A DNA stretch of 64,000 bases from Rhyzopertha dominica. Its lineage: Eukaryota > Arthropoda > Insecta > Coleoptera > Bostrichidae. The translations under genes and the position numbers were made by a program. This document shows positions 10,431-63,500 of this stretch, in pieces; the stretch's first letter is position 1, and each line of letters begins with the position of its first letter. The notes under the pieces are model-generated. The model worked only from the letters and a program-made list of their open reading frames with translations, searched no databases and was not told where the DNA came from. The DNA lies in the NCBI GenBank assembly GCA_025024175.1, contig QCXZ01000041.1, positions 51,641,786 to 51,705,785 on the forward strand. Direction: 5' to 3'.

Positions 10431-12410
10431 GAATTTCCTTCAGAATCAATAGCTTGAAGAAGAAGTTCGCTAATTAACTTCGTTAAGATCTTTATCAGCA
10501 ATTTTTAAAATAGAAATTTGCAAAAGACTGAGTAGTGAGTAGTGTGAATAAAAACTAGAAAGAATTTACTTAGCTGCTTTAGGATCTCTTATATTTATCG
10601 TATCCATTAAAAACGAATGATGATTCAGCTAGATTAAAAATAAAGTGCGAAATAAACGGTTCTCTGCCATAGTTTGATGTTGAATTTAAGAAGAAAAATA
10701 AAGAACGACAGATTTTTTTTGCTCGATGTTTTTATATGAAAGGTCTGAGTTCCTAACGCTCGTCTGACGTGTAGTTAGTTTCATTCCTATATACCCAGCT
10801 CTCGACTATTGTGGGCGAACTAACATTTCACACAGTAAATCACACGACTTGTTGAATGCCCTTTGTTGCTCATTAAGACGTGTATGCAGCTTGATTAATA
10901 GTATCTTTTTCTTTGTATCGAAAGGTTTCATAGTCAAACGACTAGCAGCATTACGAGATGTAACTGCTACCGTTAATTAGCGAAATTACACAAGTATTAC
11001 GCTGCGAAAGATCATATGCGTGTAATATTTAATGTTAATACCACAATGCGTATTGCGGACAAACTGAAGAACTCTGGAAATCAGAGTTACTGATCCATGA
11101 TGATTGGGTAACTTCTAGCCAATTATATGCAGTGAACGTATTGAAATTGCTCGGATTTTCCTTGAAAAAAATATACAGGGTGTTTAGAAAGTAATTTGAA
11201 TAATTGTTGGGATTAAACCTATACATATGTGTAACAAGTTTTGTAGTAAGCAAGATAGAATAAAAAAACACGTTTATTCTAAGTAGCTTTTGGAATTTTA
11301 ATAATTGTTGTGTTATTACTGGTGTCAATTTTAATTTTTTGACCATGCTTGCATTTAGNAGTGCTAAAATGATTAACATTTGTATGGATTAAAAAATGGC
11401 AATGCTTTAGAGGCTAGACGTATGTTGCTAAATCAAGGAGTACCTGTCATTGGACGAATTAGAATTGCGATTGAAGATTAGATCCTTCAAATTATTGTCG
11501 AATATACAGGAGAGTATCAGAAAAATTCCTCAACAACTAATTGGTAATGCTTTTGCAATCTTATTTGCTCGATAGGGAGCACTTTGTCATATATTATGGA
11601 TTCATATGTAGGAAATTTCATGCCACCTCTGGGGTATCTCAGAGAAGCAATCCGGGACCATTAGTGCCATTATATGACTTGTTTGTGGCTCTTTTTTTAC
11701 CATGAAAGTGGTTTATAATATTGGGTAGTGTAAGTTTAAATAAGTATCTGAAATTTTTGGCGTCTTCTCAGCAAACGGAACATAGGGGTCAACTGCTATT
11801 CTAAGTCGACTGATTTCCATGTACAATAAACAGAAATTGGGTTCAAAAATTAAGGTTATACTTATTGATCTGTATAATAACCACCACCAAACTAAAAATA
11901 AAGGCAGCTCAGCATCGTTACCCCAATTCACGTCTCTCAAGCTTCTAAAGATACCCTATAAATAATCGTTCTCAGCTGATTGTGCGAAACAGGAAGAAGG
12001 TCCTTATAGGAATGGCATGTTTCGCAACCCCTGCCATTCCTTTGGGATATTAGGAAGAAGCAGCTCATCCCCCCTTTCAGCACATCATATTTAGTAGTGT
12101 GTGCGGTTTGTAAAAGGGGCTGGTGCAATTACGACGGACACAATGGAACAATGCGCTCACAAAGTGAGTGCCAATGTGCCGGTCCGTTTTGAAAGCGATC
12201 GGTAGATACTCCGGACAGGGGCACCAAAAAGTTCAGGTTTCTGATGGGGATTTTGTAGGACTTATTGGTAGATGAAAGGTAGCAAAGGCAGCATGGTGTG
12301 ACTAAGGCAGCTACTTTACGAATTGCTCACACGGATGTATTAAAACACATAATTTACGATTCATTTTCTCTTCTACTCGTATTAACTTATCGGGCAATAC
12401 ATTAAAAATA
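10431..12410. other. Spacer, no gene recognised
   Basis: AT-rich sequence. TACAGGGTG followed by TTTAGAAAG, near 11175, resembles terminal sequence common in insect Tc1/mariner-type elements, but no matching second end or transposase was found. One N call lies near 11359. Confidence 0.35.
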
Positions 12411-12415
12411 ATAAA

Positions 12416-13655
12416 TAACGAGGGTGAATGCTTTCAGCGTCCATAATATAACATAATATTTTCTCGGAAAAAAATAATATGACATTTGAGGAAATGATGG
12501 CTCTTAAGGATTTGAATACAGATAAGTTCATTATAGTTACTAGAGCAGATAAATGTTCAGCCACAGTAATTTTAGATAGACGGATTATTGAGAATTGCTA
12601 TACATGAGAAAACATGTCAAAAATTATCCCGAGATCCTACTTCAAACATTTTCAAAATTACTAATGATTTTATCAAAAGTTCAAATCTTTCGAATGAGGA
12701 GAAGATTCTTGTAACTGTTTCCGATTACAAGGTACCTAAGTTGTATGGCTTGCCCAAAATCCATAAGACTAATGTCCCGTTAAGACCCATAGTTAATACG
12801 ATTGGCAGTCCTTGTTACAAATTAGCAAGATTCTGTGCTAACTATTTAAAACCTCATGTAGGACTCAGACTTTATTGATATTATAAAAGGTTTAAGTATT
12901 TCAGAAAGTGATATTTTAGTTAGTTTTGACGTGGTTCCTTTATTTATGAAAGTACCCATCCCTGAAACGATAGATATCAAATCCAAGCTTAATAGCGATC
13001 CCCTAGGTGACACGATAGCCAGATTATCTGAACATTGTTTAAAATCTACTTATTTCTTATGGAACGATAATTTTTATAAACAAAAATCAGGTTGTGCAAT
13101 GGGTTCACCTGTTAGCCCTGTAGTAGCCAATTTGTTTATGAAAAATTCTGAACAGGTAGCGATAAACAGTTTTCGGTTTAAGCCAATATGTTGGTATAGG
13201 AACGTAGATGACACTTTTGTTATTTGGCCCCACGGTATAGAAGAGTTGGGTAAGGATCTCAGACGAAAGTTCTTTGCAAAAAGAAATATATCATCTTAAA
13301 TCAGCGCTAGTGAGAAATGGTTATAGCAATAAGAATATTTGGCCAATTTTTAATAAAAGTGCTCATCCAAATCAAGTAAATTCTCAGCCAGGACAAAGTA
13401 AATTGAAGCTGAGTTTGCCTTATGTACAAGGCCTTTCGGAAAAATTAAAGCGGATGCTTAGAAAACACGATATTTTAGTTGTTGATAGTACATCTAATAA
13501 TTCAGATAAGATTTTAAGTTCTGCTAAAGACAAAGTACATTTAGAGAGTGAAGGTGTTTACAAAACTACTACATACGTGCTACTAGGCTGCAACAGATAG
13601 ATAAATCTTCCGTAGCTGAGCACTCACATTTGACTAAACACATGACTGACTTTAT
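12416..13655 (+). mobile_element. Penelope-like element (family A), decayed copy with reverse transcriptase
   Basis: The left end GAGGGTGAATGCTTTCAGCG is the reverse complement of the sequence ending the family A copy at 60480-60500, so it marks an element terminus. Inside, broken frames encode a Penelope-type reverse transcriptase: KVPKLYGLPKIHK and PLRPIVNTIGSPCYKLA (about 12730-12830), SFDVVPLF (about 12920), GCAMGSPVSPVVANLF (about 13093-13140) and WYRNVDDTFVIWPHG (about 13190-13240; the Y-V-D-D box has an N in place of V's neighbour). A deletion then joins the RT to the linker before the GIY-YIG endonuclease, of which only scraps remain (about 13560-13650). Multiple stops and frameshifts show it is inactive. 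Confidence 0.92.
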
Positions 13656-14651: not shown

Positions 14652-15100
14652 ATAATCTTACAATTAATAAATTTTTCTTTATTTGTAGACAATTTTAATT
14701 ACTGGTTATTACACGCAACAACATTTTTATGTATATAAACATAAATTGCTAGGGCCAAATAGGCTCAATATGGTCCTGAAGCAATAGCCTGTACCCTGCA
14801 CTTGGGAGTGATTTATGAGCTGCTTGTGGGAATTTTCTAAAGGTACCTGGAGTGGTAAGTTATCACTCATTATTTTAGTATAACTATACTTACCTAATTA
14901 CTGAACCACTGCCCCGTATATATATGCAAAGGTGTCAAAATACTCATTAAGCACGGCTTTGTCTTCGGTGACGCTCTTGAGTTCTTTTATACTTTTACTA
15001 AAGCTGTTTTTTTTTAAATTTCAAATGCAATGCCACTGAAATTTTACACGTTCATAAGAACAAAAATGATTTGATTACAAATATGAACGGAAATAGTATG
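14652..15100. other. Spacer, no gene recognised
   Basis: AT-rich, with no coding or RNA signal that I can support. Confidence 0.4.
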
Positions 15101-15162
15101 ATAAGATAATATATTTTCGGAAAGACCGCTATCTCTTGAAAACACTGACAAAAAAATTATAA

Positions 15163-15202
15163 GTATGACGTTTTGATTACACCTGTAATCTTTGTCAAAG
15201 AC
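15163..15202 (-). ncRNA. Decayed hammerhead-like ribozyme in Penelope-like terminal repeat
   Basis: This is the same position in the family A terminal repeat as the folds at 59223-59262 and 60371-60410. Stem II (GATTAC/GTAATC) and the 5' core are kept, but the conserved GAAA has become AAAA and stem I no longer pairs (GTCT against ATAC). Cleavage would not be expected. Confidence 0.6.
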
Positions 15203-15371
15203 GAAGAACTTCAAAATTTGCCTGACACAAGTTCAAACAAAATTTTGAAAGTAAATAAACAAATCACCAAGGAAGCGAGACGTCCTAGAAACAACTGATA
15301 GAAAAGAACTTAACAACGAAAAAGGAACTACCTACCTACAAGATATGCACGAACTACTTGGTAAAATATAA

Positions 15372-15923
15372 CTACAAAATAGCCTTCCAAATGTCACCTA
15401 ACTCATAATTTCCACAATCCCTATTAAAATTATTAGTATTTCTACAAATTTCTATAGCTTCTTTTATTAGACGTTTGTGATAATATTTTTCTCTATGTAA
15501 AATTTTTGTTTTATCAAAGTCAATCATGTGTATAGTCAAATATGAGTGTTCAGCTACGGAAAATTTATCTATCTGTTGCAGTCCAGTAGCACGTATGTGT
15601 TCTTTCAAGCGCGTACCTACTTTTCTTTTAGTTTGACCTATGTAACACTTGCCGCAAGAACATGTAATTTTGTAAACACCTTCACTCTCTAAATGTACTT
15701 TGCCTTTAGTAGAATTTAAAATTTTATCTAAGTTATCATATGTACTATCAGCAACTAAAATATCGTGTTTTCTAAGCATCCTCTTTAATTTTTCCGAAAG
15801 GTCTTTTACATAAGGTAAACTCAACTTCAATTTACTTTGCCCTGCCTGAGAATTTTCTTGATTTGGATGAGCGCTTTTATTAAAAACTGACCAAATGTTC
15901 TTATTGCTATAACCATTTCTCAC
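15372..15923 (-). CDS. Penelope-like element C-terminal linker and GIY-YIG endonuclease (partial)
   Basis: A continuous frame of 183 codons covers the C-terminal third of a Penelope-like polyprotein. The first half is the linker, including KLKLSLPYVKDLSEKLKRML. The second half is the GIY-YIG nuclease used in Penelope retrotransposition: VYKITCSCGKCYIGQTKR has the cysteine pair typical of this group and the Y-I-G box. It is followed by the catalytic Arg region (GTRLKEHIRAT), then AEHSY with the conserved His, and REKYYHKRLIKEAIEI with the conserved Glu. The frame ends in a normal stop before the terminal repeat. It lacks the N-terminal reverse transcriptase, so it cannot support its own movement. 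This is the best preserved family A endonuclease in the window. Confidence 0.9.
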   Translation of the reverse strand: MRNGYSNKNIWSVFNKSAHPNQENSQAGQSKLKLSLPYVKDLSEKLKRMLRKHDILVADSTYDNLDKILNSTKGKVHLESEGVYKITCSCGKCYIGQTKRKVGTRLKEHIRATGLQQIDKFSVAEHSYLTIHMIDFDKTKILHREKYYHKRLIKEAIEICRNTNNFNRDCGNYELGDIWKAIL

Positions 15924-16135
15924 TAGCGCTGATTTAAGATGATATATTTCTTTTTGTAAAGAACTTTCATCTGAGATCCTTTGCGCTCTAACAAATAACG
16001 TCCTTATAAGACTATTCTTTTGAGAGGGAGGGTGGTGAGCTGTGGCATGTAAATATCTGTGTGTGTTGGTTTTCTGTAAACCTTGTGTCCTAACTGCCCA
16101 GTGTTTGTTTGGACGCTGAAAGCATTCACCCTAGG

Positions 16136-16880
16136 AAATAGTATGATATTAAAAAAACACAGCTAGGTGCAATCCCTCTTAAATTATCTTAAGATCACAA
16201 ATTTGCAGAAAAAATAAACTCCAACATTTTTTATACACAGTGTTTCCAAAACATTTTTCCTGTGTATATGAAATGAAGTCATATAATTTTTTTTAAATTT
16301 TACCCGAACGAATAATGAACTACACAAAAATTCGAACTTTTCCAAATACAGTTGGAGACCACCCTGCAGCTTCCCTCCCTTTCGCTATTCCAAGTACTCC
16401 TCCGGCACAGTTCCTCCTTTATTCCTTGAAGAAGTCAAAAAGCCGCCGCCAGTTTGGCTTTTGACCCAAACGAGCCAGTGATAAGCGGGACAGCTGTAAT
16501 CCGATAGCGGAGCGGTCATCCGCCGCCGCTTAACTCCATGTTTTCAATTATACAAATTAATTAAGACAGATTGTCCGGAAAGATAGAGCGGGGCGGCTCG
16601 CACACAGAAGAGAAGCGGCCGTTTGCGCGCTTTTTCCACGTTCGGACAGAGGGAAGATCGATCGCGACAATCTACGATTACTTTGACAATAATTTCGGAC
16701 GGGGAAATAATTAGACGTCGAATTGGGATAGTTTTGATGGCTCGATTGGGCCGGTTCTAATTTAATTGACGGGAATGAATCGGTCGAGTTGTGGGCGTGT
16801 AGGAGGACGATTGTCTTTTTAGAAACTGAGGGCTGCTTTTTTCCCACCTTCGATGGGTTATAACTATGAGATCCCATTAC
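16136..16880. other. Spacer with GC/CpG-rich patch (about 16370-16870)
   Basis: The patch has many CpG dinucleotides and one minus-strand frame of 106 codons without any recognisable motif. I regard the frame as a by-product of base composition. Confidence 0.35.
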
Positions 16881-19084: not shown

Positions 19085-19195
19085 TAACCACAATAATTTA
19101 GAAAGAGTACGTACGTATTTCGGCAGCTAAGCTGCCATCTTCAGTAGAAGCGAATCTCCAGTTCGTATGTTATTTATATTCATAGGTTAAGGTAG
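19085..19195 (-). repeat. Penelope-like terminal repeat fragment (family C)
   Basis: Read on the minus strand the fragment contains CTGAAGATGGCAGC, TTA, then GCTGCCGAAATACGTACG. This is the kind of sequence found in the terminal repeats of many Penelope-like elements. It differs from families A and B. No reverse transcriptase of the same copy was found beside it. Confidence 0.65.
19105..19150 (-). ncRNA. Hammerhead-like ribozyme core (family C)
   Basis: On the minus strand CUGAAGA (complement of 19138-19144) is followed by one unpaired U, a 6-bp stem II (GGCAGC/GCUGCC, loop UUA) and GAAA (complement of 19118-19121). The stem III region is UACGUACGUA. The core and stem II fit a hammerhead, but I could not pair stem I next to the core, so activity is uncertain. 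Confidence 0.55.
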
Positions 19196-28850: not shown

Positions 28851-28969
28851 GCTCTATTCATTATCTCTGTTATTGCAGCAAACTGCATGTGAATTTTAAT
28901 GAAATATATATATTTTAATTAGATTGTATAAATATTGCATTCAAACAAGCCCTTTAAACATATAAATAA

Positions 28970-29147
28970 ATTAATTCTTCTAAAGAAAATATTCTTAAAG
29001 TGAACTTCCACTTTATTTTTCAATTGTAAAGCGCTTTCGGCTACATGTTAGCCATCGTCAGTACAAAAATTAAAAGGAAACTAACACTTTGACAAAGTCA
29101 AAAATCAGAAACAAGCAAACTTGACTACAAACTGAAATGCAACCCAC
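28970..29147 (-). repeat. Left arm of 178-bp inverted repeat (family B terminal repeat)
   Basis: Reverse complement of 29337-29514, with one difference that I see (CACTTTG against the complement of CAAACTG). It contains the minus-strand copy of the hammerhead fold. Confidence 0.92.
29024..29066 (-). ncRNA. Hammerhead ribozyme, family B, left arm
   Basis: This is the mirror copy of the fold at 29418-29460, with identical sequence. The CUGACGA core is the complement of 29055-29061 and GAAA the complement of 29035-29038. Such ribozymes in Penelope-like terminal repeats are thought to process the element RNA. Confidence 0.82.
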
Positions 29148-29336: not shown

Positions 29337-29514
29337 GTGGGTTGCATTTCAGTTTGTAGTCAAGTTTGCTTGTTTCTGATTTTTGACTTTGTCAAACTGT
29401 TAGTTTCCTTTTAATTTTTGTACTGACGATGGCTAACATGTAGCCGAAAGCGCTTTACAATTGAAAAATAAAGTGGAAGTTCACTTTAAGAATATTTTCT
29501 TTAGAAGAATTAAT
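29337..29514 (+). repeat. Right arm of 178-bp inverted repeat (family B terminal repeat)
   Basis: Follows the ORF tail in the sense direction, so this is the natural downstream terminal repeat. It carries the sense copy of the hammerhead fold. Confidence 0.92.
29418..29460 (+). ncRNA. Hammerhead ribozyme, family B, right arm
   Basis: All parts of a minimal type I hammerhead are present in order. Stem I is UUGUA (29418-29422) with UACAA (29456-29460). The core is CUGACGA (29423-29429), then one unpaired U. Stem II is GGCUA/UAGCC with loop ACAUG, followed by GAAA (29446-29449). Stem III is very short (A-G with C-U, sequence AGCGCU), and the predicted cleavage is after U29455 (C-U-U). The 6-nt stem III sequence is a palindrome, so pairing between two RNA copies is possible. 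Hammerheads with very short stem III are established for Penelope-like elements. The extra U after the core is the one oddity. Confidence 0.85.
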
Positions 29515-30590
29515 TAATAACTCTACTTAGAGAAGATGGATCAGTTTTCAATTTTTATATAAATAAATTGTTTTTAAGTTAAAGAAATATATTTTGATTA
29601 ACCCACTTCGATATGTATTTTATGCAAGTGTATTCCTGTGGCTTCCTGTTTTTTATAGAGCGTATAAAATTTGTTTCTTGTAATTAAAAATGCAATATGT
29701 CACTCAATTCACTTCCGCACAACTGTAATTGGTTTAGTAAAAAACATCTGATTTAAATCAGCCTAACCTAGACAAGTCCATTGACAAGGTAAATTTTGCT
29801 ACTTATATGTACGAATATAATGCAGACGGAAAGTATGATATTTATTTTAATCACAAATCTACTGGTTTCTATAGCGTGATAAATGTGTTCCATTTTAGTA
29901 TTACAAATATACTGAATAAATAACGCATTACTTGTAATAGTAGTTTGGTACAAATAGGGCACTTCATTGAGCAGACTTTACAATAAAATATACCTACTTC
30001 AAGATGTACAGAAACAACGCCGTAATTAACATCCTTGCGAATCATAGATGGTCATTTTGTAACAGAGCTTGCGTTAGCGATATGTGCTTGTTTGAATGCC
30101 TTATTTTTAATGTTTAAAATTATTTGATTTAATAAACAACCCCTTGAAAGTTTTCATAGAACTTTATATTGTGTTAAAAATATAAAAAAAATTGCGTGGT
30201 GGGATAAACGTGACGTTATTTATGTTTGTTTTTAGAATTAGGCATATTTTTTTTTGTATAATATGAAAAAATATAATTAGTGTTATCGCAGACAATTATT
30301 GTAAAACGTTTTAGATGGACTGATGTCGAAATAATTTTCGTAAACAGGAATTTTGAATGAAACGAATGAAAAGAAAGCAATGTTGCGCCGGCTTTCAGAG
30401 CAACTGAAACTGTCTTTCAATCCAGATGTCACGTCGATTATCAACAAAGCAACCACCAGTATTCAATAAGAACATAATAAGTACATCTATAGTTCCTTCA
30501 AACCTAAGGAGTGTGGTAGAACAACAAAAATGTTTTAACTAGAAAAGCTAGTTAGATGTATAATAAGGACAATATTCTATAAGAATTAAT
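29515..30590. other. AT-rich spacer, no gene recognised
   Basis: No supported gene, RNA or repeat beyond general AT-richness. Confidence 0.4.
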
Positions 30591-33359: not shown

Positions 33360-59165
<25,806 letters not shown>

Positions 59166-59170
59166 TAAGA

Positions 59171-59320
59171 TATTTTCTCGGAGAGGTCGCTGTCTCTTGA
59201 AAACACTGACAAAAAGTTATTAGTCTGACGTTTCGATTACACTTGTAATCTTTGTCAAAGACGAAGAACCTCAAAATTTGCCTGACACAAGTTCAAACAA
59301 AATTTTGAAAGTAAATAAAC
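59171..59320 (-). repeat. Left inverted terminal repeat, Penelope-like family A
   Basis: Reverse complement of 60312-60462 with roughly eight differences by eye. It is also closely similar to 15110-15273. Confidence 0.9.
59223..59262 (-). ncRNA. Hammerhead-like ribozyme with U3/A8 core, family A left arm
   Basis: On the minus strand stem I is GUCU/AGAC. The 5' core is UUGACAA followed by an unpaired A, stem II is GAUUAC/GUAAUC (loop AAGU), then GAAA and the very short stem III A-C/G-U, and cleavage is predicted after GUC. The canonical core is CUGANGA. Here C3 is U and G8 is A, which keeps the C3-G8 pairing position as a U-A pair. This is the best preserved family A copy. Confidence 0.65.
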
Positions 59321-59893
59321 ACGATAGTTAGGTTATCTCAACATTGTTTAAAATCTACTTATTTCTTATGGAACGATAATTTTTATGAACAAAAATCAGG
59401 TTGTGCAATGGGTTCACCTCTAAGTCCTGTAGTAGCCAATTTGTTTATGGAAAATTTAGAACAGGTAGCGATAAACAGTTTTCAGTTTAAACCAAAATGT
59501 TGGTATAGGTAGGTAGATGACACTTTTGTTATTTGGCCCCACGGTATAGAAGAGTTGGGTAGGTTTCTAAATCATTTGAACAGTCAAAATCCTGACATAA
59601 AATTTACTATGGAATTAGAAAGCTACGGTAGTTTACGTTTCTTGGATGCCCAAACTTACAGAATAAACACTGGACAGTTAGGACACAAGGTTTATAGAAA
59701 ACCTACACACACAGACAGATTTACATGCCACATCTCACCAGCCTCCCTCTCAAAAGAATAGTAAATAGAAAAAGAAATATATCATCTTAAATCAGCGCTA
59801 GTTAGAAAAGGTTATAGCAATAAGAATATTTGGTCAGTTTTTAATAAAAGTGCTCATTTAAATCAAGTAAATTCTCAGCCAAGACAAAGCAAA

Positions 59894-60310
59894 TTGAAGT
59901 TGAGTTTGCCTTATGTACAAGGCGTTTCGGAAAAATTAAAGAGGATACTTAGAAAACACGATATTTTAGTTGTTGATAGTACATATAATAATTTAGATAA
60001 AATTTTAAGTTCTACTAAAGATAAAGTACATTTAGAGAGTGAAGGTGTTTACAAAATTACTTGTTCTTGCTGCAAGTGTTACATAGGTCAAACAAAAAGA
60101 AAAATAGGTACGCGTTTGAAAGAACGCATACGTGCTACTAGGCTGCAACAGATAGATAAATCTTCCGTAGCTGAACACTCTTATTCGACTAAACACATGA
60201 TTGACTTTGATGAAACAAAAATTTCACACAGAGAAAAATATTATCACAAACGTCTAATAAAAGAAGCTATAGAAATTTGTAGGAATACTAATAATTTTTT
60301 TCCTTGGTGA
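59894..60310 (+). CDS. Penelope-like linker and GIY-YIG endonuclease, shortened C-terminus
   Basis: A 138-codon frame equivalent to the one at 15372-15923 contains KLKLSLPYVQGVSEKLKRIL, then the nuclease with VYKITCSCCKCYIGQTKR, GTRLKERIRATRLQQIDKSS, AEHSYSTKHM and YHKRLIKEAIEICRNTNN. It differs by an extra Cys (C-S-C-C-K-C). Its last residues are F-P-W because a deletion removed the end of the ORF and joins it to the beginning of the terminal repeat. The catalytic residues of the nuclease look intact, but the reverse transcriptase upstream is broken. Confidence 0.85.
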   Translation: MKLSLPYVQGVSEKLKRILRKHDILVVDSTYNNLDKILSSTKDKVHLESEGVYKITCSCCKCYIGQTKRKIGTRLKERIRATRLQQIDKSSVAEHSYSTKHMIDFDETKISHREKYYHKRLIKEAIEICRNTNNFFPW

Positions 60311-60311
60311 T

Positions 60312-60462
60312 TTGTTTATTTACTTTCAAAATTTTGTTTGATTTGTGTCAGGAAAATTTTGAGGTTCTTCGTCTTTGACAAAGATTACAGGTGTAATCGA
60401 AATGTCAGACCAATAACTTTTTGTCAGTGTTTTGAAGAGACAGCGATCTTTCCGAGAAAATA
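60312..60462 (+). repeat. Right terminal repeat, Penelope-like family A
   Basis: Downstream of the ORF in the sense orientation. Matches 59171-59320 (inverted) and 15110-15273 (inverted). Confidence 0.9.
60371..60410 (+). ncRNA. Hammerhead-like ribozyme with U3/A8 core, family A right arm
   Basis: Stem I is GUCU (60371-60374) with AGAC (60407-60410). The 5' core is UUGACAA (60375-60381), then one unpaired A. Stem II is GAUUAC/GUAAUC with loop AGGU, followed by GAAA (60399-60402) and stem III A-U/G-U, with cleavage predicted after C60406 in GUC. It has the same U3/A8 change as the left arm, so the variant is a property of the family rather than of one decayed copy. Confidence 0.62.
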
Positions 60463-60500
60463 TTATCTTATATTATGGACGCTGAAAGCATTCACCCTCG

Positions 60501-63500
60501 TATATAGTTCCTATGTCTCCGAATTTAGTTTACCAGAGAACGTAATTTTTATTGTTCATTTTGCACCCAAGTTGCAAAGTAAACCCATTTTTTGTTTCTT
60601 CCGAAACCAGAAGATTTGTAATTAAAATTTAATTTTGATGTATATGTATACTGTACATATTTATGAATGCCAAAATTTGGTCGTGTACGTCATGCTAACT
60701 TACTTTCCCCTTATGTTATGAATAGAAACAGCAAACAAAAGCTCGTATTTTAAGGTCAAAATCAAAGAAGTTTATTAAATCCAGGTAATTTTACAGGAGT
60801 TTTTAGATTTTCACTAAGTACCTATAATCATCTATCTCCAAGCAAAACTGACGCCATTTTTTCTCGTCTTTCTTTAAAGTAATCCATAATGATTTGATGG
60901 ATTTTTGCAGAATATATTGGGTATGCGATAAACAGCGACACGTTGTCTCAAAGATTATTTACAGATTTTTATTACGATACAACACGAAATCGATAATAAA
61001 CGTTGCTTTATGCTTCACCTTATCCCCAAAGCCACTTCCCGAGCAATAATCAAGAATAAGCCCCTAATGCTTTTCTCCAANTCGCATAATCAACGGTGCT
61101 CGTCGGAGGCTGAAGTGTGTTTGGTTTTCTTTTCCATCACTAATAAGGGTTCTTGTTCAAACAAGCGTGCCGCGTCCAATATGACGTTTAGGCGTAGTAG
61201 TAGATGGGTAATGCCCGAGGCCACCCCAACTCCGTCGATCTTTCACATCATAATATTTATCGTCTCATGTAAATAATGTGTACTCAACGAGAACTGGCAG
61301 CAAATACCGGATGGGTAAACAGAGGGCATTAGTGTGCCACGCTGCCAAGCTTTTGCAGATTCCTTGGAGTGTTAGGATAAAACTAGATTTGATTGAATTA
61401 ATTAAAATAATAGTAAGATAAATTAGAACAATAGGAAAACAATAAAAACGGACAAAACAGAAATTTATTTAATACAAATTGACTTGTATGGTTCTAGGTT
61501 TAGGTCAAGTATACATACTTACATGTCCATCAAATTGGTAATATTTTGGCAAAATCCGTTAAGTTGTTTTCTTCTTTCCTCCCTCGAAAGAGCTGATATG
61601 GTTTATCTTAAAACTCTTGCGTTCACTCTATTAACCAAAACCTGCAAATCTAATTTCAATCTTCATAGTCTCTAAGATTCGCCTTGAAAATATGTAGCAC
61701 ACACTCCTTCCTGAAAATCAACAGATATGTTGTAAGTGAAATAATGTAGGTAAAAAGGTTAGTTATATAGATACACTTGCAAAACTAAATAACTATCGTC
61801 TTTCNTGCTTAATATGTTGTTCCGTTCGTTCANTATTTTCTTCCGCATTCACTAACNTTCTCTGTACTTCATCTGCTGAACAGTTCAGCATTTTCNGTCC
61901 NCTTAGCACTGGGCCATCCGNCAACGTTGGGCCCGTGTACAACGGACTGAACCAAAACGGTCTTGTTGACGCATGTTTTCAGGCACCGTTTTGTTGGTCG
62001 TATTGATCACGATGAGTCGAGTGGCAGGCCTGAATCTTTTTATCGCATCAAATTTACAGCGCGGCAGCGAATTTCTGCCCATCGTCGAACATTGTTAAAT
62101 CACTGAAAAATAGGTGGTTGGAGCGAGCTAGAATATATGTAGTTTTTGGGGGAGATATAGCGAAGACATGTCAGTTTTCGCATAAAGTGTAGTATGATAA
62201 AAAATCGACGAACTGAATATGTGTTAAATAACGATTTTATGGCACCAACAAATCTCTAAGCTTCTATGAAGTGTAATAGATCAGCCTAATTTGATTAAGT
62301 AAACATATAATTAATGTTAATTAAAAAGATCATCCCCCTTCTAAAATATCTTCCTGTTCACTAATAATAATTTCCAAAACGTGTTCTCAATTTGGCACTG
62401 GTATTTTGATTTAAATAGAAAGAAATTCGAGTATTAAAACTAAGTTGACAGTTCAACTAGCTAAACTCACCAAAATGATAACACTCTTTCAAAAAATTGT
62501 TTTTGTCTTTTAGTTTGTACCTCAAAACGAAAATGAACTGTTGCAAGCGATATGTTGCTAAAATCAGAAAGAAGATTGCATTTAAGAAGAGCAAGTTCCC
62601 ATATGCCATATGGTGGCTACAAGAAAAATTGACAATCGATATTTTATTTTCATGCAAAACAAGAGAATTAGGTGGAATTTTTTATCTTTAAAATCATTGT
62701 TTAGCATGAATATACGCAACTTCCCATGTGTAGAGATGAAATGAACACCTTGAGTAGACATAATCGGATTGATTTTAATCTGCTGTACGTAAATATATTC
62801 CAATGAAAAAATAAAGTTTGTGCATTTTCAAGATATTTAACGCTCAGCGATTTATAAATATTGCTATACCCTTAAAATATTAGTGGGCTTCAGTAGAGGT
62901 CGATTTGATTACAAGTGAATGTCCAAAACGCAGTTTTTTTTGTACACGGACCGGAAACAGAGCGCCGCCGTAAGCACTTTTATCAATTATAAGCAATTCT
63001 ATTTGAATAACGTCAGCAGAAAATTAGTTATCTGTACTATTTATTAATTTTTCAATAATTTTTACGTCCTTATTCATCCTAATATAAAAAAATACTATGT
63101 TTGACCCAAACTAAAATCGTGGCTGTACGTTTAACAACGTGGAAATATTATATTTTTTGGAACCCAAATAACCGTTTTTATAAAAAAGGAAGAAGAGTAG
63201 TTACTTAAAAAAAAGTATATGTCTTGTGAGCTTAGTAAGGATTTCCACCGAATCCTATTAAATTGCAAGGTTAGCAATATATGTAACTTTATGTCTTATT
63301 GATACATCATAAATCTGCAGAAAGGAGTGTTTTTTTTTATCGAAACGACTAAAAGGTGTGAGTACTTGCACTGCTACTTTCATTACTACGCTCTGTAGAG
63401 TAACTCACTAGCATTTTACCAGCACTATCCATAATACTTGAAAGTTTTTGATACTTCCACTTCATGAGATTTATTCGCAACAGGGAGTGAACGCATTGTC

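Follow-up and report, generated by a model that had tools for sequence, protein, structure and literature searches.

A hammerhead motif with a U3-A8 core covariant in the terminal repeats of a Penelope-like element from Rhyzopertha dominica

Penelope-like insertions in the window

The DNA under study is a stretch of 64,000 nucleotides from the beetle Rhyzopertha dominica, which we refer to as the window. At 59167-60500 on the plus strand it hosts a 5'-truncated Penelope-like insertion that has an inverted copy of its own 3' end at the left. The left arm (59170-59305, minus strand) and the right arm (60328-60463, plus strand) form an inverted repeat that is 90% complementary, and a tail of ~29 nt, ending CACCCTCG at 60500, is confined to the right end. 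The insertion is bounded by a target-site duplication, with the left copy TATATAGTACCTAT at 59153-59166 and the right copy TATATAGTTCCTAT at 60501-60514. These two copies are equal at 13 of 14 positions; when the two flanks were shuffled 500 times by mononucleotide, one shuffle did as well. One duplication encloses both arms, therefore the arms belong to one insertion and are not two independent witnesses.

Between the arms lies a decayed coding remnant (59348-60307, plus strand), which appears to correspond to the C-terminal part of a reverse transcriptase, with a GIY-YIG-like motif, GVYKITCSC..CYIGQT, and is interrupted by three in-frame stops. Its match to RVT_1 has a value of 1.1e-05, yet scores under the curated cut-off (25.6 vs 29.6 bits). 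Pfam gave no GIY-YIG match to the remnant, though the GVY..YIG motif is visible, and PF01541 is present in some of the homologues listed at 93-99% query coverage. Among named relatives the best is a protein from the leafhopper Macrosteles quadrilineatus (47% identity). Of 2430 related proteins the best 120 are all at most 47% identical, and no close family member outside the window was found among them. A protein query of viral contigs gave 12 stretches that matched the pattern, none of them confirmed as relatives, and a DNA pattern of the family matched 7 stretches, in all of which stem II lacks an immediately following GAAA. Penelope-like elements often have an inverted copy at their 5' end. 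The insertion shows this and the other terminal features of the class, namely repeats with a hammerhead motif, a tail and a target-site duplication.

A second insertion of the same family lies on the minus strand at 15104-16132 (approximate limits). It sits between the copies of a repeat, 15088-15103 and 16133-16148, that agree at 15 of 16 positions and form its putative target-site duplication. Like the insertion at 59-60 kb it is 5'-truncated and decayed. Its tail piece is shorter and occurs, inverted, solely at the 5' end, at 16.1 kb. The ends of the two insertions are organized alike: the tail at one end ends CACCCT(CG), the opposite end halts before the tail near TATCTT(AT), and at this tail-less end the junction overlaps the duplication. 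Across 15088-16148 and 59153-60514 the one-ended tails are as expected if both target ends acted as primers at two neighbouring sites on the RNA. For the Poseidon element PAc of Anolis, also a Penelope-like element with a hammerhead and a tail, reverse transcription is reported to start at two neighbouring sites, and both DNA strands to be cut and extended (PMC11167929); the ends of the two insertions fit this. The left inverted arm is therefore most simply explained by reverse transcription that started from both target ends.

Another copy of this family, ~93% identical, is found at 12415-13653. Its 5' end is an inverted tail, and its 3' end, where the hammerhead would lie, is missing. An AT-rich repeat around this copy (12 of 13 positions) is weak and was not counted as a target-site duplication. 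More distant Penelope-like remnants occur at 38.0-38.5 kb (plus strand), 42.0-42.4 kb (minus) and 57.5-58.0 kb (minus). Beside the last of these, at 57675-57739 on the minus strand, Rfam gives a match to mir-2574 that is below threshold (28.9 vs 90 bits) and is probably just an inverted repeat.

The hammerhead motif and its chance expectation

Each arm of the insertion at 59-60 kb carries a 40-base motif with the layout of a type I hammerhead, i.e. stems I and II, GAAA and a UH cleavage site. In the right arm (60371-60410, plus strand) stem I is formed by GUCU at 60371-60374 and AGAC at 60407-60410. The 5' core UUGACAA occupies 60375-60381, with U3 at 60375 and A8 at 60380, and an extra A at 60382 separates A9 from stem II. 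Stem II (GAUUAC/GUAAUC) lies at 60383-60388 and 60393-60398 and is followed by GAAA at 60399-60402. The stem III stretch AUGU at 60402-60405 leads into C17, and cleavage is predicted after C60406. The left-arm motif (59223-59262, minus strand) has the same UUGACAA core, and both arms match the common 40-base pattern with 0 mismatches. A third copy in the second insertion (15163-15202, minus strand) matches with 2 mismatches and keeps UUGACAA. The stem III stretch is the self-complementary ACGU in the left arm and in the 15-kb copy; in the right arm it is weakened to AUGU, which leaves two G-U pairs when two RNAs pair with each other.

The original prediction, which placed a hammerhead layout in both terminal repeats, had the letters and coordinates right, with the qualification that the arms are inverted and the left motif is on the minus strand. 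Its reading of the 5' core as UUGACAA with U3 and A8 also stands, and has to be completed by the extra A after A9, which it did not mention. It further treated U3/A8 as common to both arms and the 15.2-kb copy. U and A are indeed found at positions 3 and 8 in all three copies, but the arms count as one insertion, so that U3/A8 is present in two independent insertions. The 15.2-kb copy retains U3/A8 and has lost G12 (now A) and one stem I pair (AGAC to AUAC), and is expected to be inactive. The other conserved core positions are intact in two of the three copies. The mobile source elements of the family presumably carried U3-A8.

C3 and G8 pair in the active hammerhead structure. The usual CUGANGA core is absent, UUGACAA replacing it in 3/3 copies, and U3 and A8 presumably pair in three dimensions as C3 and G8 do. 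The UUGACAA core does not by itself exclude membership among the type I hammerheads, because U3-A8 is a known natural covariant.

Could the motif be a chance match in AT-rich repeat DNA? A single pattern fits three sites in the window (0, 0 and 2 mismatches) and matched in 0 of 100 shuffles of the window. We also scanned for U4G5A6, A9, a stem II of 5 bp or more, GAAA, a stem III stretch that is self-complementary and has an even length (2-14), UH and a stem I of 4 bp or more, leaving positions 3 and 8 free. In the 64-kb window this gave 6 matches to the core plus stem II and 4 complete motifs, namely the two arms at 59-60 kb, with U-A at 3-8, and those of a small element at 29 kb, with C-G. 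Among dinucleotide shuffles a complete motif arose in 2 of 300, thus a single match is not impossible, but none of the 300 combined it with a standard 3-8 pair. The site is moreover a Penelope-like terminal repeat, where such hammerheads are known (PMC6155905, PMC7761336). We consider a chance origin scarcely credible.

The 29-kb element provides an internal comparison. Its inverted arms (28966-29147, minus strand, and 29337-29518, plus strand) are ~180 nt long, 99% identical and separated by a spacer of 189 nt; a target-site duplication around it was looked for and not found. Each arm hosts a complete hammerhead with CUGACGA, an extra U, an AGCGCU stem III and the cleavage site UU. The element resembles the 59-60-kb insertion in its inverted arms, the extra nucleotide after A9 and the self-complementary stem III. 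It differs in the CUGACGA core, in the extra nucleotide being U and in the cleavage site ending UU.

An Rfam scan of the window returned 5 matches at E <=10, none to a hammerhead family. The ordinary pair at 29 kb was missed as well, therefore this blank reflects a limit of the Rfam models, and the scan is without power for such minimal forms. Searches that insist on CUGANGA or rely on Rfam models can accordingly miss Penelope hammerheads. In the whole-window scan no further complete hammerhead was found in the Penelope remnants at 13, 38, 42 and 57.5 kb. A looser scan of the window, for which a stem II of 4 bp was sufficient, gave 9 lines, including UUGANAA at 38532 (plus strand) and 36326 (minus strand); these two were dropped, as no fitting stem I and cleavage site were seen. 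A lone hammerhead-like sequence at 19144 on the minus strand has CUGAAGA, an extra U and a 6-bp stem II, and the scan found neither a stem I nor a matching stem III for it.

U3-A8 in other hammerheads

The original prediction knew of no description of the U3-A8 variant. One exists: Perreault et al. 2011 (PMC3088659) report several natural hammerheads in which C3-G8 has covaried to U3-A8, and relate that covariants at positions 3 and 8 had earlier been proven active in vitro. The compensatory core swap is the same; the present motif differs in that it sits in the terminal repeat of a Penelope-like element, has no loop on stem III and carries an additional A behind A9. The word Penelope does not occur in the main text of that paper. 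What survives of the prediction is a Penelope-like hammerhead with a matched U3-A8 change, which the anatomy supports.

Minimal type I hammerheads of Penelope-like elements were described by Cervera and De la Pena 2014 and Lunse et al. 2017, as cited in PMC7761336 and PMC6155905. They share with the present motif the position in terminal repeats, the type I order and a helix III that is lacking or reduced, and cleavage as a dimer has been proposed for them. They differ in having C3-G8 where we find U3-A8. Searches of the open-licence literature turned up no U3-A8 in a Penelope element, though the hammerhead variant set of 2017 may already include one.

In the Anolis element PAc, whose natural core is C3-G8, cleavage is abolished by C3G or G8C alone and returns in part when both changes are combined (PMC11167929); the swap tested there is G3-C8, whereas ours is U3-A8. 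By analogy the U3-A8 change is chemically credible, because it is natural elsewhere and because the paired C3/G8 swap partly restores Anolis cleavage. Among 198 cricket satellite hammerheads these positions seldom vary, C3 being changed in only four and G8 in only two (PMC2837043).

For further natural cases we screened viral contigs, setting stem II to GUCC/GGAC. By their 3-8 pair, at least 120 stretches had C3-G8, two U3-A8, two U3-G8 and one C3-A8. Among the loci listed, a test for stems I and III was passed by 2/2 of the U3-A8, 1/2 of the U3-G8, 0/1 of the C3-A8 and 132/135 of the C3-G8 matches. This test is lenient, as 442 of 3000 random places pass it, so the two U3-A8 contigs, L236 and L237, were inspected by eye as well. 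L237 reads as a clean type III hammerhead (UUCGUC-ACCG-GACA-CGGU-UUGAUAA...GAAACGAA), with the core at base 200 on the plus strand. L236 has a type I hammerhead with U3-A8, a long stem III and one stem I mismatch, with the core at base 11086, also on the plus strand. Judged from their sequences, these are two independent U3-A8 hammerheads. The contig L354 hosts a hammerhead with a U3-G8 wobble, whose core starts at base 1112 on the minus strand. Of two further patterns, TTGANAA..CGAAACGTC matched at least 115 stretches of prokaryote genomes and CTGANGA..CGAAACGTC at least 120 stretches of viral contigs. In the 235 loci listed, none of 116 variant matches and one of 124 canonical matches had a stem II of at least 4 pairs together with a stem I of at least 3.

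How might U3-A8 have arisen? Methylation-driven decay of CpG, turning G8 to A, is not favoured, because CpG is undepleted in the window (observed/expected 0.99). Alternatively, the source element may have lost its ribozyme through two unrelated transitions and passed the dead core on to both insertions, the element having kept moving because cleavage is dispensable. Mutants of the Anolis hammerhead inserted normally in vitro (PMC11167929), in agreement with such dispensability. The 15-kb hammerhead is broken and still has U3/A8, so the pair does persist without function. The motif also lacks a clear excess of conservation: in three comparisons of hammerhead and flanks the differences between copies number 2/40 vs 8/118, 3/40 vs 16/126 and 3/40 vs 16/122. 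The hammerhead is thus not clearly more conserved than its flanks, and constraint is neither shown nor excluded. Against an inactivated ribozyme, both changes fall exactly on positions that pair and leave a Watson-Crick pair; by an arithmetic estimate, if 12 conserved positions received two substitutions at random, these would strike the 3-8 pair and leave it Watson-Crick about 1 time in 200. U3-A8 hammerheads exist elsewhere, and in the 59-60-kb insertion the remaining core positions and stems I and II are intact. We regard inactivation as a doubtful account, albeit one to be taken seriously.

With moderate confidence we prefer to see in the motif the known core covariant U3-A8 in a minimal type I Penelope-like hammerhead that may be active as a dimer. 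The motif is real, the U3-A8 swap is probably tolerated and the hammerhead possibly active. A retroelement would thereby join the few natural hammerheads whose almost invariant 3-8 pair has covaried, and lend comparative support to the 3-8 pair of the active hammerhead structure. No new kind of ribozyme is opened: natural core covariation of this type is known, and here it occurs in a Penelope-like family.

Predicted folding and possible dimerization

The stem III of the motif is reduced and self-complementary, as in the minimal dimeric hammerheads of Penelope-like elements, for which dimeric cleavage has been proposed (PMC7761336). With two pairs and no loop it is unlikely to be stable in a monomer. 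For this reason, pairing would take place between two RNAs, or two units in tandem, by way of the self-complementary ACGU, with cleavage after UC. Each strand of the insertion yields one hammerhead, therefore dimerization would need two transcripts. The role of the hammerhead may be in processing the RNA of the element, whose protein may also be required for cleavage. In the Anolis element the hammerhead showed no cleavage in the absence of protein, and RNA reads neither started nor stopped at its site (PMC11167929).

The monomer minimum-energy fold of all three 40-base motifs is a different hairpin, in which the hammerhead core is buried. The computed energies, which leave out tertiary contacts, are -11.8 kcal/mol for this hairpin against -7.8 for the hammerhead in the right arm, -10.1 against -7.8 in the left arm and -7.3 against -3.8 in the 15-kb copy. 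For two strands, either arm reaches its minimum energy as a long self-duplex based on the competing hairpin, with no double hammerhead. By themselves the computed folds do not support dimeric cleavage.

These folds raise the possibility that the sequence is a structural hairpin and no ribozyme, e.g. for protein binding. The core UGAC would pair with GUCA around the cleavage site on top of stem II, and in the right arm the pairing extends to UUUGACA/UGUCAGA. A hairpin of this kind has the lowest energy for each of the three 40-base motifs and recurs within the 60-base folds, but a plain hairpin gives no reason for the self-complementary ACGU or for GAAA, A9 and UC. In the left and 15-kb copies C15.2 costs the hairpin its pair with A8, and the 29-kb element shows the same layout with an ordinary core. 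A purely structural role therefore seems very unlikely, and the minimal hammerhead with a U3-A8 covariant remains our preferred reading.

The competing hairpin suggests a further idea. When the consensus C3-G8 was put in, the hairpin became stronger, at -13.7 (right) and -15.4 (left) kcal/mol. In silico, the hairpin is favoured over the hammerhead stems by 2.3 kcal/mol in the left arm and 4.0 kcal/mol in the right arm with U3-A8, and by 7.6 and 5.9 kcal/mol, respectively, with C3-G8. This model suggests that U3-A8 could ease misfolding of the hammerhead. It might even be an adaptation of hammerheads that have a loopless stem III and a core complementary to the cleavage site (CUGACG/CGUCAG), where a change from C-G to U-A would keep the core pair and weaken the hairpin that hides the core. 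We think such an adaptation improbable; if true, U3-A8 should be enriched in Penelope hammerheads with C7 and CGUCAG at the cleavage site. Even with U3-A8, the competing hairpin remains the lower-energy fold.
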